Source: Micromonospora sp. NBC_01699 | GTDB lineage: Bacteria > Actinomycetota > Actinomycetes > Mycobacteriales > Micromonosporaceae | Length of the DNA stretch: 64,000 nucleotides | Assembly (NCBI RefSeq): GCF_036250065.1 | Contig: NZ_CP109199.1 | Span: 2,356,001-2,420,000 of the forward strand | Reading direction: 5' to 3' | Notes under the pieces: generated by a model | What the model saw: the letters and a program-made list of their open reading frames with translations, nothing else | The model's database searches: none | Told to the model about the DNA's origin: nothing | Shown here: piece by piece, positions 35,474-56,856 of the stretch | Layout of the letters: each line of letters starts with the position of its first letter | Position numbering within the stretch: position 1 is the first letter of the stretch | Program-made: the position numbers and the translations under genes

Positions 35474-36531
35474 TCCTGGTCTTGCGGGCCCTCGGTGTCG
35501 GCGACCTGGCGACCGCGGTCCCGGCGCTGCGTGGCCTGCGCGCCGCGTTCCCGGACCGGACCCTGGCGCTGGCCGCGCCGGTCTGGCTGGAGCCGCTGGT
35601 CGACCTGGTCGGCGGGGTCGACCGGCTGGTGCCGACGGATGGCCTGGAGGGGGTCGAGTGGCCGGGGCCGGCGCCGCACTGGGCGGTGAACCTGCACGGG
35701 CGCGGGCCGCGTTCGCATCGGCTGCTCCAGGCCGCCGGCCCGGAGCGGCTGTGCGCGTTCCACAACGAGGAGGCGGACCACACCGACGGTCCGCCGTGGT
35801 CGGCCGACGAGCACGAGGTGGACCGTTGGTGCCGGCTTCTCGACTGGTACGACGTCCCGAGCGACCCGACCGACCTGTCCCTGCGCCGGCCCAGCCCGCA
35901 CCGGGTGCCGGTCGGCGTGACGGTGGTCCACCCCGGCGCCAAGATCGCGGCGAAGCGCTGGTCACCGGGCCGGTTCGCGGCGGTCGCCCGTGAACTGGGC
36001 CGGTCCGGTCACCGGGTGGTGGTCACCGGCTCCGCCGCCGAACGTGACCTGGCCGAACAGGTCGCCCACCGGGCCGGTCTGCCCGGCACCGCCGTGCTCG
36101 CCGGCCGGCTCGACCTGTCCGGGTTGGCCGCGGTGGTAGCGCACAGCCGGCTCGTGGTCAGCGCCGACACCGGCGTCGCGCACCTGGCCACCGCGTACGG
36201 CATCCCGTCGGTGGTGCTGTTCGGCCCGGTCCGCCCCGAGCACTGGGGTCCGCCCGTCGACCGCCCCTGGCACCGCGCCCTCTGGGCGGCGGCCCTGGCC
36301 GAATCCGCTCCCGATACCGGCTCTGAGCTGCCGGAACTTGATCCCGAGGTGCCGGACTCGGTGCCGGTCGAGGGCGACAGCGAACGGTTCCGGCCCCACC
36401 CGACGCTGGCCGCGATCGGGATCGAACAGGTGCTCGCCGCCGTGGACGAGGTCGACCACGTCCGACCGGTACGGACGGCGGGGGCGACGTCGCGAGCGGT
36501 GGCCCGGGACCGCCATGCGATTGCGACGTAG
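35470..36531 (+). CDS. GT9 glycosyltransferase (heptosyltransferase-like)
   Basis: The 353-residue protein starts at GTG 35470 (VILVLRALGVGDLATAVPALRGLRAAFP), the usual GT9 opening, with the ADP-heptose site in VVHPGAKIAAKRWSPGRF and SADTGVAHLATAYGIPSVVLFG. The pattern matches heptosyltransferases WaaC/WaaF. The C-terminal 60 residues form a low-complexity tail rich in Asp, Glu and Pro. It is the second GT9 of the operon, so at least two heptose transfers may occur. The acceptor in this monoderm is unknown. Confidence 0.9.
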   Translation: MILVLRALGVGDLATAVPALRGLRAAFPDRTLALAAPVWLEPLVDLVGGVDRLVPTDGLEGVEWPGPAPHWAVNLHGRGPRSHRLLQAAGPERLCAFHNEEADHTDGPPWSADEHEVDRWCRLLDWYDVPSDPTDLSLRRPSPHRVPVGVTVVHPGAKIAAKRWSPGRFAAVARELGRSGHRVVVTGSAAERDLAEQVAHRAGLPGTAVLAGRLDLSGLAAVVAHSRLVVSADTGVAHLATAYGIPSVVLFGPVRPEHWGPPVDRPWHRALWAAALAESAPDTGSELPELDPEVPDSVPVEGDSERFRPHPTLAAIGIEQVLAAVDEVDHVRPVRTAGATSRAVARDRHAIAT

Positions 36532-37495
36532 CGATCCGGCCACCCCCGGGTACGGGCGCCGCCGTCGTGGTCGCGGTGTGAGCTTCGTGGATCCGGGTGG
36601 TCGGCCGATCCGCGACCGGGACGAGCTGGAGCGGTTGCGGGGACTGGTGATCCCGCCCGCGTGGCGGGACGTCTGGATCTGCCCGCACCCGGCCGGGCAC
36701 ATCCAGGCCACGGGTATCGACGCCGCCGGCCGCAAGCAGTACCTCTACCACCCGCTGTGGCGGATCCGGCAGGACGAGGCGAAGTTCGACCACGTACTGG
36801 AGGTGGCCGCCCGGTTGCCGGTGCTCCGGGAGCGGGTCGGCACCGACCTGGCCGGGCGCGGGCTGGGCCGGGAACGGGTGCTGGCCACGGTGGCGAGCCT
36901 GCTCGACTCCGGCACCTTCCGGATCGGCAGCGACCAGTACGCGGCCGGCGACGACCCCACCTTCGGCGTCGCCACGCTCCGCCCCGAACACACCCGTGCC
37001 CGGCGCGGCTGCGTGGTGTTCGAGTTCCCGGCCAAGGGCGGTATCGCGCGGGTGCAGCGGATCGACGACCCCGGCCTCTGTGCGGTGCTGCGGGACCTGC
37101 GCAACCGGCGGCGCGACGCGGATCGGCTGTTCGGCTACTGGGACGGCCACGGCTGGCGGGACGTACGCAGCGACGAGATCAACGAGTATCTGCGGGCGGC
37201 CAGTGGTGGCGAGATGACCGCGAAGGACTTCCGCACCTGGCACGCGACTTTGCGCACATCACGGGCGTTGGCGCGGCTGGGGCCGGAGCGGTCGGAGACG
37301 AGGCGCAAGCGGGTGGTCGCCGGGGTCATGCGCGAGGTGGCTGAGCTGCTCGGCAACACCCCGGCCGTGGCCCGAGCGTCGTACGTGGACCCGAGGCTGA
37401 TCGACCGCTACCACGACGGCCAGACGGTCGAGATCGACCCCACCGCCCCACCCGAGGCGATCGAGCGAGCGGTTATCAACTTCCTGTCGGAGTGA
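36515..37495 (+). CDS. DNA topoisomerase IB
   Basis: The 326-residue poxvirus/eukaryote-like type IB topoisomerase is common in actinobacteria. It relaxes supercoils through a 3'-phosphotyrosyl bond; the nucleophile is Tyr290 in ASYVDPRLIDRY. Other active-site residues lie in KQYLYHPLWR, RIGSDQYA, KGGI and TWHATL. The start ATG lies inside the end of the GT9 gene, so it is read through from the heptose operon. The last 120 bases are duplicated, in decayed form, 5.2 kb downstream at 42602-42755, which marks this 3' end as an insertion boundary. Confidence 0.93.
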   Translation: MRLRRSDPATPGYGRRRRGRGVSFVDPGGRPIRDRDELERLRGLVIPPAWRDVWICPHPAGHIQATGIDAAGRKQYLYHPLWRIRQDEAKFDHVLEVAARLPVLRERVGTDLAGRGLGRERVLATVASLLDSGTFRIGSDQYAAGDDPTFGVATLRPEHTRARRGCVVFEFPAKGGIARVQRIDDPGLCAVLRDLRNRRRDADRLFGYWDGHGWRDVRSDEINEYLRAASGGEMTAKDFRTWHATLRTSRALARLGPERSETRRKRVVAGVMREVAELLGNTPAVARASYVDPRLIDRYHDGQTVEIDPTAPPEAIERAVINFLSE

Positions 37496-37755
37496 ATGCG
37501 AAACGCGGCCGAGCTCATCCGGACGGGGGCGGCGAGCTGAGTGCCGTGGCGTGCACGATCGCGTTGAGTGGCACACCGGCCAGACTTGACTGGCTGACCG
37601 CCGACCCGGCAGGCCAGCCATGTTGCGCCTATAAGAACCATTTCGACCCGATTCACACCTAGTCGAAATGCCGGCATCGTTCCACAGATCGTGTCTGAAT
37701 CAAAAAGCTGAGGGATTGTCGGACTCGACGTGCGATCTACTCTCCTTCATCCGCA

Positions 37756-38493
37756 GTAGACCCGTCATATGACCGAGCGACCGCTTATCCTTCCGACCTG
37801 TCCGACGCCCGCTGGTCCCTGATCGCCCCCCGGCTGACCGCGTGGCGTCAGGCCCGAACCGACGCCGGCGTCGGCGGCCGAACCGCTACCCACGACCTTC
37901 GAGAAATCTTCAACGCGATCCTCTACGTCAACCGCACCGGCATCGCCTGGCGCTACCTGGCCCCACGACCTGCCACCGTGGCAGACGGTCTACTGGTACT
38001 TCACGACATGGACGGGCGACGGCATCTTCACCCAACTCAACTACCAGCTCACCGGCCTGGTCCGCGACCACAGCGGGCGACAGGCGACACCCACCGCGTC
38101 CATCATGGACACCCAGAGCGTGAAGACCTCCACCAACGTCCCGACCGCGACCCAGGGCACCGACGCCGGCAAGAAGATCGTGGGCCGCAAGCGCGGGATC
38201 GTCACCGACGCCCTCGGCCTACTGCTCGCGGTCATCGTCACCGCGGCCAGCGTCAGCGACAACATGATCGGCATGGACCTGCTCAACCAAGCCGCCGCCA
38301 CGTATCCCACCCTGACCAAGACATGGGCCGATGCCGGCTTCAAGAACCGAGTTGTCGAACATGGTGCCACTCTTGGCCTCGACGTCGAGATCGTCACCAA
38401 GGATCCGCAGGTCCAAGGCTTCAGCGTAGTCAAGCGCCGATGGGTGGTCGAGCGCACACTGGGCTGGCTCATGCAGCACCGTCGGCTCGTGCG
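37756..38493 (+). pseudogene. IS5-family transposase, frameshifted and truncated
   Basis: The first part reads SYDRATAYPSDLSDARWSLI (from 37768) to GIAWRYL near 37965. There the frame shifts at CTGGCCCCAC and resumes as HDLPPWQTVYWYFTTWTGDG. The catalytic region then follows (SIMDTQSVKTS with the first Asp, VTDALGLLLAVIVTAAS, TWADAGFKN, and RWVVERTLGWLMQHRRLVRE with the Glu). Homologues continue after RRLVR; here the sequence turns into unrelated bases at about 38490 and stops at 38513-38515. In this IS group a frameshift can be programmed, but the missing 3' end makes the copy dead. Confidence 0.8.
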
Positions 38494-38511
38494 CGAGAGG
38501 AGTGCAACCAT

Positions 38512-39279
38512 ATGAACCTGTCAAGATTCAAGCCGGATCTTCCGCAACTCTCAACGGAATGGATCGAGGCCCGCCGCCTGGCGCTTATCAACGAGATCAA
38601 CAGGAACCCGAAAGCGGCGGCATCTAAGCGTTGGCTCCCGAGCTTTTCTGTGCGTTTCGGCCTCGCCTCGATCGCGGTCGGAGTCGTTGCTGTCATTATC
38701 ATTATGGCGCTGGGGACGACGCCTCCCATCGAATCCGCTTACGCGTCATGGACAGCGATACCCCATCCCGCAACTCCGACCGAAGCGACGAGGATGGCCG
38801 ACGAATGCCGAGATCGACTCACCAAAATGAAAGGCCCAAGCAGTCAAAGCGTGCCCAGTAACCTAATACTCGCCGAACAACGAGGGAATATAACAACGGT
38901 CATGCTAGGTGGGCCGAACAGCTATGCATTCTGTCTCCTTTCGCCCAACCAGGCCTTCTCAGGGCGAGGTGAGACCACGGGCAGCCCCAAGGAGGGGGTC
39001 GAAGTTATAAGCTCCCCTGTTAGGCATAATGGCGGCGGCACCGCACGCGTTTTTCTCGCCCAAATAGGCCCGGACGTGACTGCAGTGGACATCGTTACAA
39101 TAGATCAGGGCCGGATTACCGCCACCGTCGCAAAGGGTTGGTGCGTCGCGTGGTGGCCGTCTGCAACCACGGCGGTCGAGCTTCTGGTGACGGGTCGGAC
39201 CGGCACAACCGCTGCACAGAAACTTGACCCACCGCCCACAGACAATGGGTTGCCCTCGACCGTTGTTCGACCTTCTTGA
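38512..39279 (+). CDS. Membrane-anchored hypothetical protein
   Basis: The 255-residue protein has a cytoplasmic N-terminus of about 45 residues, one hydrophobic helix (FGLASIAVGVVAVIIIMALG, about 50-69) and an outer domain of about 180 residues beginning TTPPIESAYASWTAIPHPAT. The layout is like anti-sigma or ECF-linked membrane proteins of actinobacteria, whose outer domain often starts with a similar AxASWTAxP phrase, but no sigma factor gene is present: the IS remnant lies directly upstream. The gene may have lost its partner. Its codons are less GC-biased than the surroundings. Confidence 0.7.
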   Translation: MNLSRFKPDLPQLSTEWIEARRLALINEINRNPKAAASKRWLPSFSVRFGLASIAVGVVAVIIIMALGTTPPIESAYASWTAIPHPATPTEATRMADECRDRLTKMKGPSSQSVPSNLILAEQRGNITTVMLGGPNSYAFCLLSPNQAFSGRGETTGSPKEGVEVISSPVRHNGGGTARVFLAQIGPDVTAVDIVTIDQGRITATVAKGWCVAWWPSATTAVELLVTGRTGTTAAQKLDPPPTDNGLPSTVVRPS

Positions 39280-39361
39280 CCGGCCGCTTGTGCTGGACCG
39301 CCTCAACGTGTGGCACTCCTTTCTCCCGTCGCGTACGGGTGGTCAGGTGGTCGCGGGACGT

Positions 39362-39643
39362 TCAAACCGATCGCAGCCGGCGGCGGATCGGCGGGTCGTG
39401 GATCCAGCCGATGAAGCGGGCTTCGGCTTGTTCGGGGGTCAGGTCGGGCAGGGTCGCGGTTGCTTTGTCGCGGAAGGCGCCCATCACCTCGGCGAGTCGT
39501 GGTCGGTTGCCCTGGTAGAGGGACCACATTCGGCGGCGGAAGATCTGGCAGGGCCATTCCTCGTTGTCGTCGCGGCAGTGCCAGTCGTCGCCGGGGCGGT
39601 GCGGGGCGCCCATCGGGACGTCAGCGTCCGGGTCGTGTTCCAC
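39362..39643 (-). CDS. Micro-operon gene 8: hypothetical protein
   Basis: The 93-residue soluble protein starts at a GTG with GGAGAG upstream. It contains DDWHCRDDNEEWPCQIFRRRMW (two Cys spaced by ten residues) and a helical C-terminal half (PDLTPEQAEARFIGWIHDPP). It is the last gene of the leftward operon. No family was recognised; such proteins occur near integrative elements in this group by my recollection. Confidence 0.65.
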   Translation of the reverse strand: MEHDPDADVPMGAPHRPGDDWHCRDDNEEWPCQIFRRRMWSLYQGNRPRLAEVMGAFRDKATATLPDLTPEQAEARFIGWIHDPPIRRRLRSV

Positions 39644-39658
39644 GTTCGTTCTCTCCGT

Positions 39659-39892
39659 TCAGAGCAGGTGGACCCGCTCGGTGCCGCCGTCGGGGTTCCG
39701 CACGGTGAGGCTTCCCCCGCCCCGTTCGGTCAGGTCGAGGACCAGGTCGAAGACCACGAGCGCCCGGTTGATCGTGTCCGTCTTCGTGTCCCCCGTACGG
39801 GCGCGCGCCGAGGCGAGCGCGTCGACCGCGCGGGGCACCAGGTTGACCGTCACCTTCGTCAGCGCCGACCGGTCCGGCACCGGGTCAGCCAC
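39659..39892 (-). CDS. Micro-operon gene 7: ribbon-helix-helix-like protein
   Basis: The 77-residue protein reads LTKVTVNLVPRAVDALASAR then TGDTKTDTINRALVVFDLV, the strand-helix-helix pattern of CopG/Arc DNA-binding proteins. The tail GGSLTVRNPDGGTERVHLL is a short strand hairpin. It may regulate the operon or act as an antitoxin-like DNA binder, but no toxin partner is evident. GTG start overlaps the stop of gene 6. Confidence 0.75.
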   Translation of the reverse strand: MADPVPDRSALTKVTVNLVPRAVDALASARARTGDTKTDTINRALVVFDLVLDLTERGGGSLTVRNPDGGTERVHLL

Positions 39893-40100
39893 GACGTCTA
39901 CCGACCACGATCATCGGTACCGTCGGGGCCGGTGGTCGGGTCTTGCACGACCAGCACGGGCACGAGCACGGCGCCCACGGCAGCCACGACTTCGACCACG
40001 GCTTGACCCAACCCCCACACCGGTCACACTTCCCGCTGCCACCACCACAGTTCATGCACAACGGCCCGTCCACCGCCGCGGTAAGCGGTCCGTCCGTCAC
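39885..40100 (-). CDS. Micro-operon gene 6: Cys-rich zinc-knuckle-like protein
   Basis: The 71-residue protein starts at GTG 40100 with GGAGG five bases upstream and overlaps gene 5 by GTGA. It has eight Cys: CMNCGGGSGKCDRCGG forms a CxxC-x6-CxxC zinc ribbon, and CSCPCWSC follows after a Trp-rich turn. The N-terminal half is a likely metal-binding module and the end is basic (VVGRRRG). The function is unknown. Confidence 0.7.
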   Translation of the reverse strand: MTDGPLTAAVDGPLCMNCGGGSGKCDRCGGWVKPWSKSWLPWAPCSCPCWSCKTRPPAPTVPMIVVGRRRG

Positions 40101-40276
40101 CGGGCCTCCACTGCCACCGGCGCCATTTTTTGTTGCTCGCGTTGCGCCCAGGCCAGTTGCTCGCACCCGTCCGGCCGGCACTGCGGGCACCGGCGCGCAC
40201 CGGTGTGGCCCCGGATCGTCTCGTTCACCGCCCACACGATCGCCGCCCGAGTCAGCGGCTCATCCTGCCTACTCAC
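40097..40276 (-). CDS. Micro-operon gene 5: small Cys-motif protein
   Basis: The 59-residue protein starts at GTG 40276 after GGGGGAG and overlaps both neighbours by four bases. It begins VSRQDEPLTRAAIVWAVNET, carries the motif CPQCRPDGC (C-x2-C-x4-C), and then a helical QLAWAQREQQK stretch. The motif spacing is the same as in gene 4. No known family was recognised. Confidence 0.65.
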   Translation of the reverse strand: MSRQDEPLTRAAIVWAVNETIRGHTGARRCPQCRPDGCEQLAWAQREQQKMAPVAVEAR

Positions 40277-40482
40277 GACTCCCCCTTTTCTGCGCCGTTC
40301 CGCGTACCGGTGCTCACGTCACGCGCGAGCGCCTGAAGGAACTCGATCGCACGATCCATGTACGGGCACCCGTACTGGGTGCAGTGGAGGCAGACCGGCC
40401 GCCAGAGGCGCGAATTACGGTGCCGCATGACCTCACTCCGAGCGATCCACTTCAACGTCTCGATGCTCAATTGCCCGCTCAT
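40273..40482 (-). CDS. Micro-operon gene 4: small Cys-motif protein
   Basis: The 69-residue protein starts at ATG 40482. It reads LSIETLKWIARSEVMRHRNS, then CLHCTQYGC (C-x2-C-x4-C) and a helical tail YMDRAIEFLQALARD. The motif resembles gene 5 in spacing and position, so the two may share an origin. It overlaps gene 5 by four bases. Confidence 0.65.
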   Translation of the reverse strand: MSGQLSIETLKWIARSEVMRHRNSRLWRPVCLHCTQYGCPYMDRAIEFLQALARDVSTGTRNGAEKGES

Positions 40483-40485
40483 CGG

Positions 40486-40764
40486 TCACCCCGTCGGGTT
40501 GCGCCGGATACGCCCGGACATCCCGATGGCGAAGAACTCCATCGGCAGGTTCCGACGGTCGCGGTCGTATCGGCCCTCGTTGGGCATGCGCCGCCGTGTA
40601 CCGGGGGCAGTGGGCAGGTCGGGCAGCCCCTCACCGGGGATCTCCGGGTCGGTGGTCTGGTTCGTCTCGTCGTCACTCACCGGGTGTGCCTCCATCTCGA
40701 ACGGTCGGGTGAACATCGCGCGGCAGGCGCGGTCGTACTCGGGACCAGCACGTCGTCGCGTCAT
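40486..40764 (-). CDS. Micro-operon gene 3: hypothetical protein
   Basis: The 92-residue protein is taken to start at ATG 40764, which overlaps the stop of gene 2 as ATGA; a GTG at 40797 is also in frame. The sequence is charged (RRRAGPEYDRACRAMFTRPFE), with an acidic middle (DDETNQTTDPEIPGEGL) and a basic C-terminus. No hydrophobic core is visible, so it may be disordered or bind a partner. No family was recognised. Confidence 0.6.
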   Translation of the reverse strand: MTRRRAGPEYDRACRAMFTRPFEMEAHPVSDDETNQTTDPEIPGEGLPDLPTAPGTRRRMPNEGRYDRDRRNLPMEFFAIGMSGRIRRNPTG

Positions 40765-41081
40765 GACCACCGACTTGGGTCGGTCGCGGTCAGACACCGC
40801 TCACACCCGAACGGACACGGAGGCCGCCGATAACCCGGAAGCGCAGTAGTCCGCACCACACCGACCCGGCCCGCCACCCGCTCACCCTCCGGCCCCAGCT
40901 CGACCCCCACCAGGGCAACCCAATCCGTACGACCCAACCTCACATCAACGGGGTAATGCGTCACCCGCAGACGAAGGTCCTGCCAACCCTCGGGCCACTC
41001 GAACGGCCCATGACCGAGCAGGCACGACGTCGGATCGATCGTGAACACGTCACCGACCTTGACCAACGGCTTATCCGACAT
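40761..41081 (-). CDS. Micro-operon gene 2: hypothetical beta-rich protein
   Basis: The 106-residue protein starts at ATG 41081 and overlaps gene 1 by 11 bases. It reads VKVGDVFTIDPTSCLLGHGP, DLRLRVTHYPVD and WVALVGVELGPEGERVAGRV, an alternating strand pattern that suggests a small barrel, and ends with CPFGCERC, a possible metal site. The function is unknown. Confidence 0.65.
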   Translation of the reverse strand: MSDKPLVKVGDVFTIDPTSCLLGHGPFEWPEGWQDLRLRVTHYPVDVRLGRTDWVALVGVELGPEGERVAGRVGVVRTTALPGYRRPPCPFGCERCLTATDPSRWS

Positions 41082-41265
41082 GACAGCCCCCATCGCGGGG
41101 CAGGCAGTAGCCCGTGCGCTGCCCGAACGTCAGCAACGGCCCGAGGAGAAGCGTCGGACCAGCCCACACCGGGCGGTCGGACGGCGGCGGAATGGGCGGC
41201 TGCGGCGCGGCAGCCCCGAGGAACCACGGCCAGGCGCAGCCCCGCCAACGGCGAACCAGGAACAC
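41071..41265 (-). CDS. Micro-operon gene 1: small hydrophobic protein
   Basis: The 64-residue protein starts at GTG 41265 with AGGAGG eight bases upstream, one of the best ribosome sites in the island. It is basic at the N-terminus, then Trp/Pro/Ala-rich and moderately hydrophobic (WPWFLGAAAPQPPIPPP, GPTLLLGPLLTFGQR) and ends with Cys-containing GYCLPRDGGCHVG. It heads the operon. The function is unknown. Confidence 0.6.
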   Translation of the reverse strand: MFLVRRWRGCAWPWFLGAAAPQPPIPPPSDRPVWAGPTLLLGPLLTFGQRTGYCLPRDGGCHVG

Positions 41266-41460
41266 TCTCGACACCTCCTGTGAGCTGTGGGAAGGGGCGC
41301 TCCCACCTCCCCTCGGGAGCGCCCCCGCTGACGCAGCCGCCGGGCTCGAACCTCCACCGACCACGCCTCCTTACCGATCACCCTGCCTCGGGTGGCCGGA
41401 CATGCACACTCCGTTGATGTATGGTCCTCGAAGGTCACGGACATCCATTAGGGAGGCTGG
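41266..41460. promoter_or_regulatory. Divergent promoter region of micro-operon and XRE gene
   Basis: The 195-base gap must hold both promoters. Near the XRE gene, TTGATGTATGGTCCTCG (41414-41430) is AT-richer and probably its promoter region. Near the operon lies a strong hairpin (41294-41325). A segment GGCTCGAACCTCC (41341-41353) resembles a tRNA T-loop but no tRNA can be folded. Confidence 0.5.
41294..41325 (-). terminator. Leader hairpin (attenuator-like) before micro-operon
   Basis: GGGGCGCTCCC (41294-41304) and GGGAGCGCCCC (41315-41325) form a perfect 11-bp stem with a 10-base loop, 29 bases before the first start codon of the leftward operon. In the leader it could act as an attenuator, or as a DNA operator for the XRE protein. 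Confidence 0.5.
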
Positions 41461-42228
41461 ATGAACCATGCACTTGTAGCGGCGATGGCTGAGGTCGGCG
41501 AGACCACCGACTCTCTCGCAGCTCAGTTAGGTGTTGACCCGAAGACGGCAGGGCGTTGGATCACCCCTGGACGGATACCGCAGCCAAGGCGACGATTCAA
41601 GATCGCCGAGATCCTGAAGAAGGACGTTGGTGACCTTTAGCCGGACGTCCTGCGGCGAAAAGAGCCCGTCTGGTTCCGCCAGTGGACCGAAAATGAGCGC
41701 GAGGCGAAGGCGCTGCGCTGGTTCGAACTGACATGGGTGCCGGGCCTTCTTCAGACCGAGGCGTACGCGCGGGCGACGCTGGAGGGCGAAGATCTGACCT
41801 CTGCGGAGGTCGAACAGCTCGTCATCGGTCGCCTCGCGCGGCAGTCCATCCTGCGGCGGGACCGGCCGCCGCTCCTGATCGCCGTCATTGACGCCGGGGT
41901 GCTCTACCGCTCCGCCTACGGGGACCGCGAGCTGATGCGCGAGCAGTGCGCCTACCTCGCCGAGTGCGCAGAGCTGAAAACAGTGCAGATACACATGATT
42001 CCCAGGGACATCGGCATGTACCCCGGCCTCGGCGGACCGTTCACGATCGCCGAGATGCCCGAGGGTGGCCGGATCGCCCACGTCGACAGCCAGGCCGAGG
42101 CTCAGATCGTCGAGAAGCCGTCGAAGATTGCTACGCTGGAACGACGGTGGGAACGCATCCGGGGGGAAGCCCTCCCGCGAGCACAGTCCCTAGAACTGAT
42201 CAGGGAAGCGGCGGCATCATGGACGTGA
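41461..42228 (+). pseudogene. XRE regulator with DUF5753, interrupted by an in-frame amber codon
   Basis: The frame opens with MNHALVAAMAEVGETTDSLA and a helix-turn-helix (QLGVDPKTAGRWITPGRIPQ), reaches ILKKDVGDL, then has TAG at 41638-41640, and continues in the same frame as PDVLRRKEPVWFRQWTENE and through the whole DUF5753 domain (LTWVPGLLQTEAYARATLEG, GLGGPFTIAEMPEGG) to 42228. Homologues have Trp at the stop position, so a single TGG to TAG change is likely. The gene is either a new pseudogene, a truncated 59-residue DNA-binding protein, or read through at low level. The ATG at 41737 could restart translation of the ligand domain. Confidence 0.85.
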
Positions 42229-42407
42229 GCGGCGCACAGTGGCGCAAGAGCACCAGGAGCGGCAACAACGGCGGCAACTGTGTAGAGGTCGCTGACAACC
42301 TCGCGAGCGTCGTGCTTGTCCGCGACACAAAGGACCGTGACGGCGGCACGCTGACCTTCGGGCCGGAGGCGTGGCGCGCGTTCGTCGGGCTGGCAAAGCA
42401 GCAGTAA
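42219..42407 (+). CDS. DUF397 family small protein
   Basis: This 62-residue protein is of the DUF397 family: SGAQWRKSTRSGNNGGNCVEVA, VLVRDTKDRDGGTLTF and WRAFVGLAKQQ. Such proteins are encoded directly after WhiJ-like XRE/DUF5753 regulators throughout actinobacteria and are thought to modulate them. Here it overlaps the end of the amber-interrupted regulator gene by ten bases, so its translation may depend on ribosomes reaching that end. Confidence 0.9.
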   Translation: MDVSGAQWRKSTRSGNNGGNCVEVADNLASVVLVRDTKDRDGGTLTFGPEAWRAFVGLAKQQ

Positions 42408-42452
42408 ACGCCCGTAGCGGGCACGGGCGCCCCGTCCGCTGGCGACCCTGAC

Positions 42453-42522
42453 GAAAAACGTCATTCTCTATTCCTCCTCAAGAGCAGCGAACTCTTCAGG
42501 GAAATAGAGAATGACGTTTTTC
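42453..42522. repeat. Long perfect inverted repeat
   Basis: GAAAAACGTCATTCTCTATT (42453-42472) pairs exactly with 42503-42522 over 20 bases, with a second small stem AAGAG/CTCTT inside the loop. It is AT-rich and lies 46 bases after the DUF397 stop codon, at the edge of the island. It can act as a bidirectional terminator or be the relic of a small transposon. Confidence 0.7.
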
Positions 42523-42601
42523 CGTCCGCCGCGTCGGTGTCACCGCACGTTGTAGTGCCCTGCGCTCTCCGGAGGTGAGTAGACCCTCGCTCGCCGGAGC
42601 G

Positions 42602-42755
42602 ATGCCGTGGTGTCCCCGGTACCGGGATGCCCAGACGTCCTATGTGGACCCGAGGTTGATCGACCATTACCACGGGGGCCAGACGATCGCGATCGACCCG
42701 ACCGCCCCACGCGGAGGCGATCGAGGGAGCGGTTGTCAATTTCCTGTCGAGCTGT
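42602..42755 (+). pseudogene. Remnant of topoisomerase IB 3' end
   Basis: The DNA repeats the last 120 bases of the topoisomerase IB gene with roughly 85 percent identity by eye: the active-site Tyr segment is kept as SYVDPRLIDHYHGGQT, followed by IAIDPTAP. An extra base at CCCACGCGGAGG (42702-42713, versus CCCACCCGAGG in the intact gene) shifts the frame, and the stop codon is lost. Sequence upstream of 42620 is only vaguely similar. It is a non-functional second boundary of the island. Confidence 0.85.
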
Positions 42756-42774
42756 ACGTCTTCGTCCCTCGTTC

Positions 42775-43344
42775 TCACCCCTGACGAGGGCTGACTCCCG
42801 TCACAGCCAGGTCGAATAGCCGGTTCGCCTCGGTCGCCGGGTCCGGGTGGTGTTCCGTGGCCAGGGCGATGCCGGTGATCAGTGTGAGCAGGTCGGTGAG
42901 GGTCACGCCCGATGCGACCGCGCCGGCCTGCACCGCGCGGCGTACCAGTGGTTCGCCTGCCTCGGTGAGTTGCGCGGTGGCGCAGTGCTCGTGCGGTTCG
43001 TCGGGGTCGGCCGTCTGGTCGCGGGTCAGTGCCATCGCCAGGCCCCGGATGGAGGCGGCGGACGAGGTGACGGCGCTCAGCCACTCCAGCAGGGCGGCGC
43101 GGGTGTCGGCGGCACCGGTCAGGTCGCGGGCGTGGGCGCACAGGATCTCGATCCGTGCGGCGAAGACCGCCTCCAGCAGTGCGTGGCGGCTGGGAAAGTG
43201 CCGGCGCACGGTGGCCGAGCCGACCCCCGCGATGCGGGCGATCTGCTCCAGGGACGCGTCGGCACCGTAGGCCGCGATCTCCTCCTCGGCCACGGCGAGC
43301 AGGCGCGCGTAGTTGCGCCGGGCGTCCGCGCGCTGGGCGGTCAT
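42775..43344 (-). CDS. TetR/AcrR family transcriptional regulator
   Basis: The 189-residue repressor has the helix-turn-helix ASLEQIARIAGVGSATVRRHFPSRHALLEAV near the N-terminus and a helical ligand-binding domain. The C-terminus ends SPRQG. ATG 43344 is chosen because GAGGTGA lies just upstream; GTG 43353 is in frame. It is divergent from an NmrA-like oxidoreductase, and a clean 23-base palindrome sits between them, so it very probably represses that gene and itself. Confidence 0.92.
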   Translation of the reverse strand: MTAQRADARRNYARLLAVAEEEIAAYGADASLEQIARIAGVGSATVRRHFPSRHALLEAVFAARIEILCAHARDLTGAADTRAALLEWLSAVTSSAASIRGLAMALTRDQTADPDEPHEHCATAQLTEAGEPLVRRAVQAGAVASGVTLTDLLTLITGIALATEHHPDPATEANRLFDLAVTGVSPRQG

Positions 43345-43399
43345 GGGCGTCACCTCGAAGCTTGCTAAGTGGCGGGGTCCTCCGTATCGTAGCGAAGCA

Positions 43400-43422
43400 T
43401 AAACGGCGGCCCCCGCCGTTTA
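43400..43422. promoter_or_regulatory. TetR operator palindrome
   Basis: TAAACGGCGG-CCC-CCGCCGTTTA has two perfect 10-base half-sites separated by three bases. It lies in the 104-base gap between the divergent tetR and nmrA-like genes, where it would cover both promoters. Confidence 0.75.
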
Positions 43423-43448
43423 GTGTATGCGCAGGCCAGAGGAGCCCC

Positions 43449-44387
43449 ATGTCTACCGATCCCGCCCCCGTTCTGGTCACCGGCGCCACCGGCCGGCAGG
43501 GCGGCGCCACCGCCCGCGCCCTGCTCGCGGCCGGCGTCCCCGTCCGGGCGCTGGTCCGCGACCCCGCAACCGACCGGGCGAAGGCCGTCGAGGCGCTCGG
43601 CGCCGAGTTGGTCACCGGCGATCTCCACGACCGCGACTCCGTGACCAGGGCCGCGCAAGGAGCCCGCGCTGTCTTCTCGGTGCAGATGGCCGAGTTCAAG
43701 GCGGGCGCCTTCGACTTCGACGGCGAACTGACCCAGGCCGTCAACCTGATCGAGGGCGCGCTGGCGGCGGGCGTACCGCAGTTTGTGCACACGTCCGTCT
43801 CCGGCGCCAGCCGGTACACCGAGATCCCCGGCTGGGCCGAGGGCCGCTGGGCGTCGATGGAGCGCCCCCTGGGAACCAAGGCCAAGATCGAGGACCGGGT
43901 ACGCGAAGCGGGCTTCCCGCACTGGACGCTCATCAAGCCGAGCTTCTTCATGGACAATTTCCTGCCCTCGATGGCATTCCTGTTCCCGCGCGGCGTGGAG
44001 GGTGGCCTGGTGAGCGTCCTGAAGCCGGACACCCGGCTCTCCCTCGTCGCGACCCCGGACATCGGTACGGCAGCCGCCGCAGCCCTGACCGCACCCGATC
44101 GGTGGCACCGGATCGAACTGGAACTGGCGAGCGACTACCTGACGATGACGGATATCGCCGCTGCCCTCTCCCGCGCGCTCGGCACCGAGCTGACCGCGCC
44201 CAACATGACGGTGGAGCAGGCGACCGCAGCCGGGATGCCGGGGATGGGCGCCTCACACGAATTCATGAACGTGTCCGGTCAACCCGCCCGCCCCGAGTAC
44301 GCGCGGGCCCTCGGTATCCCACTCACCACCTTCGAGGAATGGGCGCACGAACACCTCCGCGCAGCCGGGCGCCGCCAGGGAAACTAA
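43449..44387 (+). CDS. NmrA-like NAD(P)-binding oxidoreductase
   Basis: The 312-residue atypical SDR opens with VLVTGATGRQGGATARALLA, the glycine loop of NmrA/HSCARG proteins, followed by VPVRALVRDP where NADPH is bound. There is no Tyr-x3-Lys active site, and SVSGASRYTEIPGW replaces it, as in redox-sensing or isoflavone-reductase-like members. It starts at ATG 43449 with AGAGGAG five bases upstream. The TetR operator just before it suggests induction by a small molecule or toxic compound. Confidence 0.88.
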   Translation: MSTDPAPVLVTGATGRQGGATARALLAAGVPVRALVRDPATDRAKAVEALGAELVTGDLHDRDSVTRAAQGARAVFSVQMAEFKAGAFDFDGELTQAVNLIEGALAAGVPQFVHTSVSGASRYTEIPGWAEGRWASMERPLGTKAKIEDRVREAGFPHWTLIKPSFFMDNFLPSMAFLFPRGVEGGLVSVLKPDTRLSLVATPDIGTAAAAALTAPDRWHRIELELASDYLTMTDIAAALSRALGTELTAPNMTVEQATAAGMPGMGASHEFMNVSGQPARPEYARALGIPLTTFEEWAHEHLRAAGRRQGN

Positions 44388-44396
44388 CGCTTTCAA

Positions 44397-44442
44397 CTCG
44401 TACATCATCTTTTGCGTACGTACACCAAAGATGGTGTACGAG
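44397..44442. repeat. Inverted repeat after the NmrA-like gene
   Basis: CTCGTACATCATCTTTT (44397-44413) pairs with CAAAGATGGTGTACGAG (44426-44442) over 17 bases with two G-T-type mismatches; the loop contains GCGTACGTAC, itself palindromic. It lies ten bases after the stop codon and is a plausible terminator, but its AT-rich arms also look like a regulator site. Confidence 0.6.
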
Positions 44443-44609
44443 ATCGATGCATCATGCGTCCGCCTGGCGTGCCCCGATGGCGTCGATTGCCGGAGTGGCG
44501 GTGCGGGTGCCCCGGCTCGACGCCCGCCCGCCGCCGCATCGCCGGCTAACCGTCACTCGGGAGCCGATCACCGCATCTCGTGTCCATGCGGGCCTTCTAG
44601 GATCGGCCG

Positions 44610-45641
44610 GTGAAGACGCCGCCGCTGCCGCCGGGAACGCTCGACCGTCTACCGGGGCTGGCCGACCTAGGCAGAACCGCCACCAGACTGCACCCGCGTC
44701 CCGGGGCGGTCGGCGTACGGGACAGCCACGTCGGGGGACCGCTGTGGTGGCCGGCGGACGAACCCCGGCCCACCTGCGAGCACCCGTACATGGTGCGGGA
44801 GGAGGTGCCGATCCCGGCCGAACTGGTGGACCGGATGCGGGCCGCCGAGGCTCGGCGTACGGTCGCTCATCAGCTCGCCGACGGCGAGCGCGAGCTGCGC
44901 GACGAGATCGCCGACCTGGTCGGGCCCGGTTTCACCGGTTGGGGTTCGCGCGACGGCGGCCCGATGGTCGGCTACCGGTACGTCGCCCGCCCGCACCCGA
45001 CGCCCCACCCGATGCTGCCGGTGGCCCAGTTGCGGGCCGACGACGTCCCGGACCTGCCCCGGCCCGGTGGCGCCGACCTGCTCCAGGTGCTCTGGTGCCC
45101 GTTCGAGCACCAGCAGACCCGCAGTTGGGGACCGACGGTGAGCCTGCACTGGCGTCGCGAGGCGGAGCTGACCGGGGTCCCGACCGAGCCGCCGACCGGC
45201 GAGATCGGCGAGATCGGCAACGAGGTCTACCGGCCCCGGCCCTGTCGCCTGCACCCCGAGCAGGTCGTGGAGTACCCATATCCCGAGGAGTTACCGGAGG
45301 AGCTACGGGGACGTGTGGACGACGACTACGTGAGCACGTTCATGATGCCCGGCTGGAAGGTCGGCGGGTACGCCAACTGGAGCGTCACCGATCCACACGA
45401 GACACCCTGCCCGAGTTGCGCCGGCCCGACCGGGTTGACCCTGGTTGTCGATTCGAAGGAGTACGACGGCGGCACCCGCGACCGGTGGCGGCCGGTCGAG
45501 GAGCAGCACCTGGAGTGGGCCGACCCGGAGCGCTTCGACTCGCAAGAGCCGACCGGTGTCCAGGTGGGCAGGTGGGGGGCGCTGCGAATCTTCACCTGTC
45601 CGCGCTGCCCGGACACGCCGTTTCTGCTCGACGTGCAGTGA
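44610..45641 (+). CDS. DUF1963-like protein
   Basis: The 343-residue cytoplasmic protein starts at GTG 44610. SHVGGPLWWPADEPRPTCEHP and the late PVAQLRADDVPDLPRPGGADLLQVLWCP are the marks of the YwqG/DUF1963 fold, and GRWGALRIFTCPRCPDTPFLLDVQ at the end with CPSCAGPTG earlier suggests a zinc pair. The role of the family is unknown; members occur near toxin-immunity genes in other phyla. No such gene is adjacent here. Confidence 0.75.
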   Translation: MKTPPLPPGTLDRLPGLADLGRTATRLHPRPGAVGVRDSHVGGPLWWPADEPRPTCEHPYMVREEVPIPAELVDRMRAAEARRTVAHQLADGERELRDEIADLVGPGFTGWGSRDGGPMVGYRYVARPHPTPHPMLPVAQLRADDVPDLPRPGGADLLQVLWCPFEHQQTRSWGPTVSLHWRREAELTGVPTEPPTGEIGEIGNEVYRPRPCRLHPEQVVEYPYPEELPEELRGRVDDDYVSTFMMPGWKVGGYANWSVTDPHETPCPSCAGPTGLTLVVDSKEYDGGTRDRWRPVEEQHLEWADPERFDSQEPTGVQVGRWGALRIFTCPRCPDTPFLLDVQ

Positions 45642-50356: not shown

Positions 50357-51874
50357 ATGAGCACACCGACGGGCGGCCTTTCGATTCTGGCCGCGGCGGT
50401 CCTGCAACCGGGTTTCGAGGGCACTGCCGCTCCGCCGGACTGGGTGCGCCGCTGGCTCGCTGAGGGGCTCGGCGGCGTCGCCCTCTTCGCCCGCAACGTA
50501 CGCGACACCGAGCAGGTGTCCGCCCTCACCGCCGCACTGCGGGCCGAGCGGCCGGACGTGCTGGTGTCGATCGACGAGGAGGCCGGCGACGTCACCCGGT
50601 TCGAGTCCCGGCTCGGCAGCTCCCGGCCCGGCAACCTCGCCCTCGGCGCGATCGACGACCCGGAACTGACCGAGCGGGTGGCCCGCGACCTCGGCGCCGA
50701 CCTGGCCGCCGCCGGCATCACCCTGAACTACGCGCCGGTCGCCGACGTCAACTCCAACCCCGACAACCCGGTCATCGGCGTACGCGCCTTCGGGGCCGAC
50801 TCCGCCCTGGTGGCCCGCCAGACCGCCGCCTGGGTACGCGGACTCCAGGCCGCCGGGGTGGCCGCCTGCGCCAAGCACTTCCCCGGACACGGTGACACCA
50901 GCGTCGACTCGCACATCGACGTACCCCGGATCGGGGCGACCCGGGACCGGCTCGACGCGGTCGAGCTGCCGCCGTTCCGGGCCGCGATCGACGCCGGGGT
51001 GCAGGCCATCATGACCGGTCACCTGCTGGTCCCGGCGATCGACGGCGAGTGGCCGGCGACACTGAGTCGCCGGGTGCTTAACGGACTGCTCCGCGAGGAG
51101 CTCGGCTTCCAGGGTGTGGTGATCACCGACGGGATCGAGATGCGGGCCGTCGCCGACCGCTACGGCCTCGAAGCCGTGGCCGTACGCGCGCTGGCCAGCG
51201 GGGTGGACGCGATCTGCGTCGGTGGCGACCACGCCGACGAGGAGACCGCCCGCCGGCTGCGGGACGCGATAGTCGCCGCGGTGATCAGCGGGGAGCTGCC
51301 GGAGGAGCGACTGGTCGAGGCCGCCAAGCGGGTCGGTCAGCTCGCCGCCTGGACCACCGCCGCCCGCGCCGAGCGGCCGGAGTGGTCCGGTTCGGGTCCG
51401 GACGGTTCGGTGATCGGGCTGGCGGCGGCCCGGCGGGCGGTCCGGGTGATCGCGACCGCCGACGCCGCCGCGCTGCCGCTCACCGGCCCGGCGCACGTGG
51501 TGGAGTTCGCGCCGCCGCGCAACATCGCGATCGGCGCGGAGACGCCGTGGGGAGTGGCCGAGCCGCTCGCCGCACTGCTGCCGGGCACCTCCACGATCCG
51601 GCTGGCCGCCGAGGACCTGCCGGCCGGCGACCGGCTGCCGTCCTCCCTGCTCGCCCCGGCGGTGGGTCGCCCGCTCGTACTGGTGGTCCGGGACCTGCAC
51701 CGGCACGACTGGATGGCCGCCACCGTGGCAGGAATGCTGGCGGTACGCCCCGACGCCGTGGTGGTGGAACTCGGTGTGCCGGAGCTGGTCACCGGCCGGA
51801 TCCACCTGTCGACGTACGGCGCCACCCGGGCCGGTGCCCGGGCGGCGGCCGAACTGCTCGCCGGTCCCTCCTGA
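50357..51874 (+). CDS. GH3 beta-N-acetylhexosaminidase (NagZ-like)
   Basis: The 505-residue enzyme has a GH3 barrel (about 20-340) with KHFPGHGDTSVDSHIDVP, whose Asp/His pair acts in catalysis in NagZ enzymes, LVSIDEEAGDVTRF at the substrate end, and nucleophile Asp in VVITDGIEMRAV. A C-terminal GH3-C-like domain (about 365-500) follows. There is no signal peptide, so it is cytosolic and probably trims GlcNAc from imported muropeptide or chitin fragments. ATG 50357 is taken as start. Confidence 0.9.
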   Translation: MSTPTGGLSILAAAVLQPGFEGTAAPPDWVRRWLAEGLGGVALFARNVRDTEQVSALTAALRAERPDVLVSIDEEAGDVTRFESRLGSSRPGNLALGAIDDPELTERVARDLGADLAAAGITLNYAPVADVNSNPDNPVIGVRAFGADSALVARQTAAWVRGLQAAGVAACAKHFPGHGDTSVDSHIDVPRIGATRDRLDAVELPPFRAAIDAGVQAIMTGHLLVPAIDGEWPATLSRRVLNGLLREELGFQGVVITDGIEMRAVADRYGLEAVAVRALASGVDAICVGGDHADEETARRLRDAIVAAVISGELPEERLVEAAKRVGQLAAWTTAARAERPEWSGSGPDGSVIGLAAARRAVRVIATADAAALPLTGPAHVVEFAPPRNIAIGAETPWGVAEPLAALLPGTSTIRLAAEDLPAGDRLPSSLLAPAVGRPLVLVVRDLHRHDWMAATVAGMLAVRPDAVVVELGVPELVTGRIHLSTYGATRAGARAAAELLAGPS

Positions 51875-55641: not shown

Positions 55642-56856
55642 GTGCCGGAAGTACCGGAGTACGCCGAGACCATCGCCGCCGCGCTCGTCGCCGCGGCGCT
55701 CGCCCTGCTCGTCGCCGAGGTGCTCTACCGCGCCCTGCGCTGGCTCGGCCGGCGGTCACTGTTACTGGTCGAACTGTCCGAACACGGGCACCGGCCGTTC
55801 CAACTCGCCGGAACGGTGTTCGCCGTCCAGGTCGCGGTACGCGGCAGCACCGACTACGCGCGCCACTCCACCTGGCGTACGGCGGTGCTGCACCTGCTGG
55901 TGCTGGGGGTGATCGCCGGCGCGGCCTGGCTGGTGGGCGCCGTACTGCTGGCCGCCGAGGACACCGCGCTGGCCCGGTTCCGCACCGACGTACCGGACAA
56001 CCGGCAGGCCCGGCGGATCAAGACCCAGGTGGTGATGCTGCGCCGGGTCACCATCGCGGTGATCGTCGTGCTCGCCGTCGGTGCCGCCCTGATGACCTTC
56101 CCCAGCGTCCGGGGCGTCGGCGCGAGCGTGCTCGCCTCCGCCGGGGTGATCGGCGTGGTCGCCGCGCTGGCCGCGCAGACCGTACTCGGCAACGTCTTCG
56201 CCGGCATCCAACTCGCCTTCAGCGACGCGGTACGCCTCGACGACGTGGTGGTGGTCGAGGGGGAGTGGGGACGGATCGAGGAGCTGACCCTCAGCTACGT
56301 GGTGGTCCAGATCTGGGACGACCGGCGGCTGATCCTGCCGACCTCGTACTTCACCAGCAAGCCGTTCCAGAACTGGACCCGCACCCGGGCGGCGGTGCTC
56401 GGCACGGCCGAGTTCGATGTGGACTGGTCGGTGCCGGTCCAGCTGATGCGCGAGGAGTTGCGCCGGCTGGTGGAGGGGACCGAGCTGTGGGACGGGCGGG
56501 TCTGCGTACTCCAGGTCACCGAGGCCACCGGTGGCCTGGTCCGGGTCCGGGCCCTGGTCAGCGCCGCCGACGCGCCGAGCCTGTGGGACCTGCGCTGCCT
56601 GGTCCGGGAACACCTGGTCGCCTGGATCCGGGACCAGCGTCCGATCGCCCTGCCCCGGACCAGGGCCGAGATCGGCGACGCCCACGGCGGCTTCGACTGG
56701 CAGGCGGTCCGGCCGCCCGGTCGGGGTGGGCCGGTGCCGGCCGCGCAGGCCCGCGACGATGCCCGGGTGTTCGGCGGCAGCGACGACGGCGACGCGCGCA
56801 GCAGCACCTTCGTCGGACCGGACGAACCGGTCGACGCCAACGCCACCAGGGGCTAG
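55642..56856 (+). CDS. MscS-type mechanosensitive ion channel
   Basis: The 404-residue protein has four or five membrane helices (VAAALALLVAEVLYRAL, LVLGVIAGAAWLVGAVLL, RVTIAVIVVLAVGAALM) and the pore helix and beta domain of MscS (GASVLASAGVIGVVAALAAQTVLGNVFAGIQLAF, then DDVVVVEGEWGRIEEL). The alpha/beta C-terminal vestibule follows to residue 360, and the last 45 residues are a Gly/Asp-rich tail. It opens under membrane tension and releases solutes. GTG 55642 has GGGGAG before it. Confidence 0.9.
   Translation: MPEVPEYAETIAAALVAAALALLVAEVLYRALRWLGRRSLLLVELSEHGHRPFQLAGTVFAVQVAVRGSTDYARHSTWRTAVLHLLVLGVIAGAAWLVGAVLLAAEDTALARFRTDVPDNRQARRIKTQVVMLRRVTIAVIVVLAVGAALMTFPSVRGVGASVLASAGVIGVVAALAAQTVLGNVFAGIQLAFSDAVRLDDVVVVEGEWGRIEELTLSYVVVQIWDDRRLILPTSYFTSKPFQNWTRTRAAVLGTAEFDVDWSVPVQLMREELRRLVEGTELWDGRVCVLQVTEATGGLVRVRALVSAADAPSLWDLRCLVREHLVAWIRDQRPIALPRTRAEIGDAHGGFDWQAVRPPGRGGPVPAAQARDDARVFGGSDDGDARSSTFVGPDEPVDANATRG

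Follow-up and report, generated by a model that had tools for sequence, protein, structure and literature searches.

Hotspots that lack integrases and that recombine in their flanking core genes have been described (PMC5635113). Homology-facilitated illegitimate recombination (HFIR) is known, at low frequency, from transformable species and from conjugation in E. coli (PMC5361080, PMC3240628), and it was proposed to have left displaced genes downstream in Vibrio (PMC5361080). Here, we describe a locus in Micromonospora sp. NBC_01699 where two blocks of accessory genes lie behind a DNA topoisomerase IB gene and are joined at a decayed copy of that gene's 3' end. We think there is about an even chance that the blocks are two fillers of a hotspot that were joined in series by recombination anchored in the topoisomerase gene, with the spare gene end as the seam.

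Like the hotspots of PMC5635113, the locus has stable flanks, a strongly variable filling, accessory genes, and no integrase that we could find. However, those hotspots were explained by double homologous recombination, which should leave no duplicated gene end, whereas this locus kept one. The type VI secretion system loci of Vibrio (PMC5361080, where Rhs loci are also cited) have an anchor of shared sequence, as we propose for this locus, with displaced 3' regions or orphan immunity genes downstream and pieces in series; but in Vibrio whole immunity genes were displaced, whereas here the displaced piece would be the last 120 bases, now decayed, of a gene of housekeeping type. Actinomycete integrative elements (AICEs; PMC3218068) likewise sit behind the end of a gene, part of which is directly repeated. 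Unlike them, our island has no tyrosine integrase that we could find, and the open reading frames (ORFs) of it that we scanned with Pfam include no family for transfer or replication. Our search of the literature for islands sited at topoisomerase IB gave one paper, a review of archaeal recombinases.

The stretch of DNA that we analyzed (the window) has 64,000 nt and corresponds to positions 2,356,001 to 2,420,000 of the forward strand of NZ_CP109199.1 (assembly GCF_036250065.1). Coordinates are positions within the window unless a genome is named. We compared the window to the rest of its own genome (G000), to two congeners (G001 and G002), to 354 genomes of the family, and to 80 named Micromonosporaceae topoisomerase IB loci, with the DNA up to 10 kb downstream of the gene. 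An earlier note on this DNA, made from the sequence alone, had proposed that an element integrated in the 3' end of the topoisomerase gene and brought its own replacement end, so that two copies of the gene end bracket an island.

The topoisomerase IB gene end and its decayed copy

The gene and its repeated end are as follows:

36578 to 37495, plus strand: intact DNA topoisomerase IB gene (Pfam Topoisom_I and Top1B_N_bact; start codon uncertain)
37370 to 37489, plus strand: left repeat copy, the intact in-frame gene end (repeat search and alignment)
42629 to 42749, plus strand: second, decayed copy of the 3' end, which is the seam (repeat, alignment, and tree)

The earlier note reported that the last 120 bases of the topoisomerase gene recur downstream with a frameshift, and we confirmed this. 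The direct repeat has two parts, 37370-37454 with 42629-42713 (84% identity) and 37454-37489 with 42714-42749 (92% identity), so that the copies are spaced 5259-5260 bases apart. Across 120 aligned columns there are 17 mismatches (86% alike), and one inserted base in the second copy accounts for its frameshift. When the gene end was compared by BLAST to the 10 kb downstream, the match covered 114 nt at 86.8% identity (E = 4e-35) and is therefore not due to chance. The repeat leaves out the final 6 bases of the gene. A search of the genome with the topoisomerase protein (E <= 0.001), which is 90-92% identical to its counterparts in G001 and G002, gave two matches, namely, the intact gene and the second copy. 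The lower GC content that the note ascribed to the island is also real: 0.61-0.68 per kb across 37-43 kb, versus 0.70-0.77 in the neighboring kilobases on both sides.

The second copy, or remnant, is closest to the gene beside it: it is 86.8% identical to its own genome's gene end, 78.5% identical to that of G002, and 74.6% identical to that of G001. A tree built from 18 gene ends places it as sister to the own gene with a local support of 0.965, and 6 of the 120 sites are common to these two sequences alone. Its branch length is 0.19, while that of the own copy is about zero. Similarly, ten of the 17 differences were polarized to the remnant and one to the own gene (six are ambiguous). The ten resolved changes are spread evenly over the three codon positions (3/4/3), while the own gene and G002 differ over the same 120 bases mostly at third positions (3/3/12). 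These comparisons indicate that the left copy is the normal end of the topoisomerase gene and that the remnant is a dead copy from its own lineage, which arose after the split from G002 and has been changing like noncoding DNA, with no coding constraint.

We saw no sign that the left copy was replaced. In 120-base bins along the gene, the last 120 bases diverge fastest between G002 and G001 as well, and the own gene and G002 diverge faster in two other bins. This is no signal of a replacement end on the left, although one from a very near donor would be traceless. A tandem duplication of the gene end along with the DNA downstream was also considered and rejected: the sequences that follow the two copies align no better than chance (44 of 500 shuffles were as good). 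An extension of the remnant upstream of 42627 was not significant, as 370 of 500 shuffles scored as well there, and 42548-42626 proved to be the flank of a cassette. Thus, of the proposed integration in the 3' end, the insertion behind the gene end, the intact left copy, and the decaying right copy stand, whereas the left copy lacks any mark of foreign origin and no tyrosine integrase was found in the island.

Extent of the insert and alleles in the congeners

The edges of the insert and of its blocks are defined by these features:

37496 to 37616: left edge of the insert, with no match in G002 past the topoisomerase stop codon
42523 to 42626: right flank of the cassette, shared with the cassette near 2.00 Mb of G000 (L210) up to base 42626
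42775 to 43353, minus strand: TetR-family regulator (Pfam), whose end lies 25 bases past the remnant
43449 to 44387, plus strand: NmrA-like NAD(P)-binding protein (Pfam), whose last codons lie inside a palindromic repeat
44610 to 45641, plus strand: resident downstream gene, with homology to G002 resuming at about 44555-44580

G002 lacks the island. There, the end of the topoisomerase gene joins, 52 bases on, the equivalent of window position 44580. Relative to G002, about 7 kb is extra here; it begins at 37496, reaches to about 44555-44580, and includes the TetR and NmrA genes. The left border of the island is at the gene end, as the earlier note had it, but the insert continues for 1.8 kb past the second copy, so that "bracketed" is right for one side only. 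The note also expected that a genome without the island would join the topoisomerase end to the TetR region. Instead, G002 joins it to the gene at 44610, and its TetR-NmrA pair sits upstream of topoisomerase, at a distance of about 29 kb.

In G001, 34.5 kb fills the same gap (L134/L135, at 6783.6-6818.0 kb of G001). Among 32 ORFs called in this island, the 20 that we scanned with Pfam include MerR, MarR, and LysR regulators, three beta-lactamase-fold proteins, an enolase, a transporter, and a transposase that is presumably of the IS3 type; none of the 20 is a site-specific recombinase. The island of G001 also contains a pair of XRE-DUF397 cassettes that resemble each other, with about 4.8 kb between them.

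In the window, the remnant is the join between an XRE-DUF397 cassette block and the TetR-NmrA block. The DNA that follows the hairpin of the L210 cassette matches window positions 42548-42626 (79 nt, 81% identity). This match breaks off at 42626, and 42629 is the first base of the remnant, which makes an abrupt nonhomologous junction, defined to within two bases. On the other side, the match of the TetR-NmrA pair to G002 ends at 44359. This pair is present in 58 of the 354 family genomes (including the own genome and G002). Its 83% identity to the pair of G002 is no higher than its identity to other genera (best matches, 83 and 82%), while identity to G002 is 86-92% for most of the collinear DNA and ranges from 82 to 92% overall. 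Because of this, the TetR-NmrA block was probably a separate acquisition, and relocation from the position in G002 is unlikely.

We also considered whether native intergenic DNA, with the last codons of topoisomerase, begins at 44492. Just 5 of 500 single-base shuffles did as well, which looked suggestive, but so did 242 of 4000 pieces of the window and 43 of 2000 dinucleotide shuffles, and part of this sequence belongs to a dispersed repeat that extends to 44523. These controls weaken the reading, which we dropped.

A content hotspot between stable flanks

The right-hand anchor of the hotspot is

50444 to 51874, plus strand: glycosyl hydrolase 3 gene (Pfam), shared across loci

The upstream neighbor of topoisomerase IB, which we take to be a short-chain dehydrogenase-type gene, was found in 71 of the 80 named loci, at 967-1132 bp. 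On the other side, the glycosyl hydrolase 3 gene was found in 69 of the 80, and its distance from topoisomerase varied between 442 and 9475 bp, with a median of 6623. Since the DNA covered reached at most 10 kb downstream, the gap may be longer in the remaining eleven, or their contigs may end within it. The corresponding gap is 12.9 kb in the own genome, 7.9 kb in G002, and 43 kb in G001. Two of the 80 loci have an XRE-DUF397 pair inside this gap. Overall, the interval from topoisomerase IB to the next shared gene is a hotspot of gene content, with stable flanks and a high turnover of fillers.

How the arrangement may have arisen

The two fillers that are now in series would be the XRE-DUF397 cassette block (37496-42626) and the TetR-NmrA block (about 42750-44555). 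DNA from a close relative, with one filler beside its topoisomerase end, would have recombined with a chromosome that bore the other filler. One crossover would have taken place in shared sequence, in topoisomerase itself or in genes on its right; we infer that the other end was joined without real homology, that is, by HFIR. Between the fillers, this would have left a second gene end of about 120 bases, which has decayed since then. If the cassette block arrived from the left, then the remnant would be the resident's displaced end; if the TetR-NmrA block arrived from the right, then the remnant would be the donor's gene end. A palindromic repeat at 44361, which follows cassettes elsewhere too, would fit with TetR-NmrA arriving second, but it does not decide the order.

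Several observations are consistent with recombination between filled alleles. The same place is empty in G002, while in G001 it carries a different filling that includes two XRE-DUF397 cassettes. The insert follows directly on the stop codon of the intact gene, which fits a homologous anchor, although the crossover left no mark. HFIR also predicts an abrupt junction, as seen at 42626/42629, but so do the rival explanations.

Other observations weigh against this scenario. One of the parental alleles that it requires has not been seen: topoisomerase is directly followed by TetR-NmrA in none of the 80 named loci, within the downstream DNA of up to 10 kb that was covered, and none of 29 TetR-NmrA loci (from the 58 genomes with the pair, with about 1.5 kb examined on each side) adjoins topoisomerase. 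The cassette-bearing allele, in contrast, is seen in G001. Native downstream DNA was not found right after the second copy, where TetR-NmrA follows instead, but a later insertion could hide it. The remnant has also changed more than expected. The own gene and G002 differ at 22% of third positions across the topoisomerase gene, and if the duplication is as recent as the single change on the own side suggests, then the remnant, with its ten changes, evolved too fast. The remnant may have been slightly diverged when it arrived, or the small numbers may mislead. Finally, the structure of the junction does not by itself separate HFIR from other insertions, and HFIR is rare where it has been measured (PMC5361080, PMC3240628).

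We weighed three other explanations. The cassette block might be the product of a local duplication during repair of a break at the topoisomerase end, in which a cassette fragment from another part of the genome was caught in the break and came to be flanked on either side by about 120 bases, with no foreign DNA involved. The own branch of about zero since the copies split implies that they began alike, and the genome has many related cassettes as possible sources. However, the closest full-length cassette elsewhere in the genome is just 79% identical, the insert also includes a transposon remnant (presumably IS5-type) and an ORF that were not found at the other cassette loci, and the same gap is filled differently in G001. 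We consider local duplication unlikely. Derivation of the remnant from a different topoisomerase gene, which the earlier note had named as a way to be wrong, or a chance match is hardly credible, barring a closer paralog outside our sample. G001 and G002 do each encode another topoisomerase IB, whose protein is 71 and 68% identical to the own one and whose gene is missing from the own genome, but the longest alignment of the remnant to these paralogs is 51 nt and the best E value is 7e-5, as compared to 114 nt and 4e-35 for the own gene.

The remaining explanation is that the locus is the relic of an integrase-bearing element that entered the 3' end of the topoisomerase gene site-specifically, with a 120-base copy of that end aboard, and whose genes for the integrase and for transfer were lost afterwards. 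The geometry is suitable: an intact gene end, an insert, and then a second gene end, with the repeat stopping 6 bases before the gene's end. Elements in the 3' ends of genes are common, and AICEs with tyrosine recombinases mostly use the 3' ends of tRNAs (PMC3218068). However, we found no tyrosine integrase (PF00589, searched in the three genomes) in the island or in the 34.5-kb allele of G001, and the nearest one matched in the own genome lies at a distance of about 254 kb. A profile made from 18 integrase domains of these genomes found its positive control but nothing in the window's interval, the island of G001, or the DNA downstream of topoisomerase in the 80 loci. Serine recombinases were absent from the Pfam scans of chosen ORFs, without a dedicated search for them. 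As for the earlier note's suggestion of complete elements at topoisomerase IB in other strains, 79 of the 80 loci had enough downstream DNA to look for a second gene end, and none had a comparable one; six gave matches of 25-36 nt with E values of 1e-4 to 1e-3. In addition, native DNA does not follow the second copy, and nine other cassette loci had no topoisomerase match, even though the query included the gene end. A search for the remnant's DNA across the 354 family genomes found it in the own genome only; this search was weak (it saw the gene end of G002 but missed that of G001), and it says only that the same seam is not common in close relatives. We found no support for an integrase-driven origin and think it quite improbable, somewhat more so than a local duplication.

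The scar is real and instructive, known processes explain it reasonably well, and it probably records an ordinary kind of event; the interest of this locus lies in the clean anatomy of its seam. Dead gene ends provide a readable record of how a hotspot was filled where there is no integrase in sight, and truncated, decaying 3' ends between accessory blocks would bear on how far islands in actinobacteria grow by recombination in flanking genes and how far by mobile elements. As a long shot, islands in these filamentous bacteria might grow free of integrases by repeated one-sided recombination in the core gene next to a hotspot, each event leaving a short dead gene end, and the 3.2-kb XRE-DUF397 cassette might be a unit that is copied again and again and spreads without a transposase of its own.

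Contents of the cassette block

The cassette block and the nearby repeats contain

37617 to 38496, plus strand: transposon remnant, cut short at its right end (Pfam DDE_Tnp_1)
38512 to 39279, plus strand: ORF with a hydrophobic stretch and no Pfam match (ORF list and Pfam scan)
39298 to 42522: dispersed XRE-DUF397 cassette (Pfam DUF5753 and DUF397; other copies in the own genome)
42453 to 42522, plus strand: hairpin with A/T tracts and perfect 20-nt arms, behind the DUF397 gene (z = -8.1)
44361 to 44523: dispersed palindromic repeat (z = -6.8 for 44367-44477)

The cassette belongs to the WhiJ/BldB-type gene family of actinobacteria. This family has many paralogs per genome (PMC10294661), and 14 such pairs that were tested in Streptomyces coelicolor are regulators, not toxin-antitoxin pairs (PMC10364602). 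As in other clusters of this type, an XRE-DUF5753 gene (41461-42228) precedes a DUF397 gene (42219-42407), and dispersed paralogs are numerous. In contrast to them, the window's cassette has five small minus-strand ORFs, an in-frame TAG within the XRE gene (at 41638-41640, between the helix-turn-helix and DUF5753 parts), and a hairpin that occurs at eight places in the own genome, each directly behind a DUF397 gene. In S. venezuelae, an abaA-type ATPase gene lies beside five of the ten loci of this type (PMC10294661), but none of the five small ORFs here had a HATPase match in Pfam.

The cassette recurs, whole or in part, at ten other loci that we inspected in the own genome (71-89% identity), near 1.06, 2.00, 2.29, 2.34, 2.73, 2.91, 4.44, 4.67, 5.31, and 7.35 Mb, and there are weaker matches elsewhere. 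The copy near 2.91 Mb is the left part only and that near 4.44 Mb is the right part only. In copies with both parts, the DUF397 proteins are 68-89% identical and the small ORFs are often 66-93% identical (some, 29-51%), while the DUF5753 part of the XRE protein is 30-51% identical. It is as if the middle of the cassette were swapped or diversified faster than the better-conserved outer parts.

To the left of the cassette, the region 37549-37580 matches DNA left of another cassette (L206; 34 nt, 94% identity, G000 2728807-2728840). As for the transposon remnant, two other copies of this transposon agree with each other for about 150 nt beyond 38496, where the window's copy stops.

The hairpin may act as a bidirectional terminator. 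The cassettes near 1.06, 2.29, and 2.34 Mb gave no match to it. We rejected it as a covarying structure: 4 of 26 pairs can still form after changes on both sides, yet the covariation term was +0.28 across the eight aligned copies, which is no net support. An Rfam scan of 36500-45000 found nothing at the gathering thresholds.

The palindromic repeat (about 70-160 bases) was inspected at nine other places in the own genome, of which five have a cassette no more than about 300 bases away and the other four do not. One copy (L204) lies 13 bases after a cassette's hairpin, and one copy in G002 is near two small ORFs. Elsewhere in the window, ARAGORN placed a tRNA-Asn at 55727-55818, inside a strong ORF of 404 codons (55642-56856) from a simple gene caller; one of the two may be wrong.

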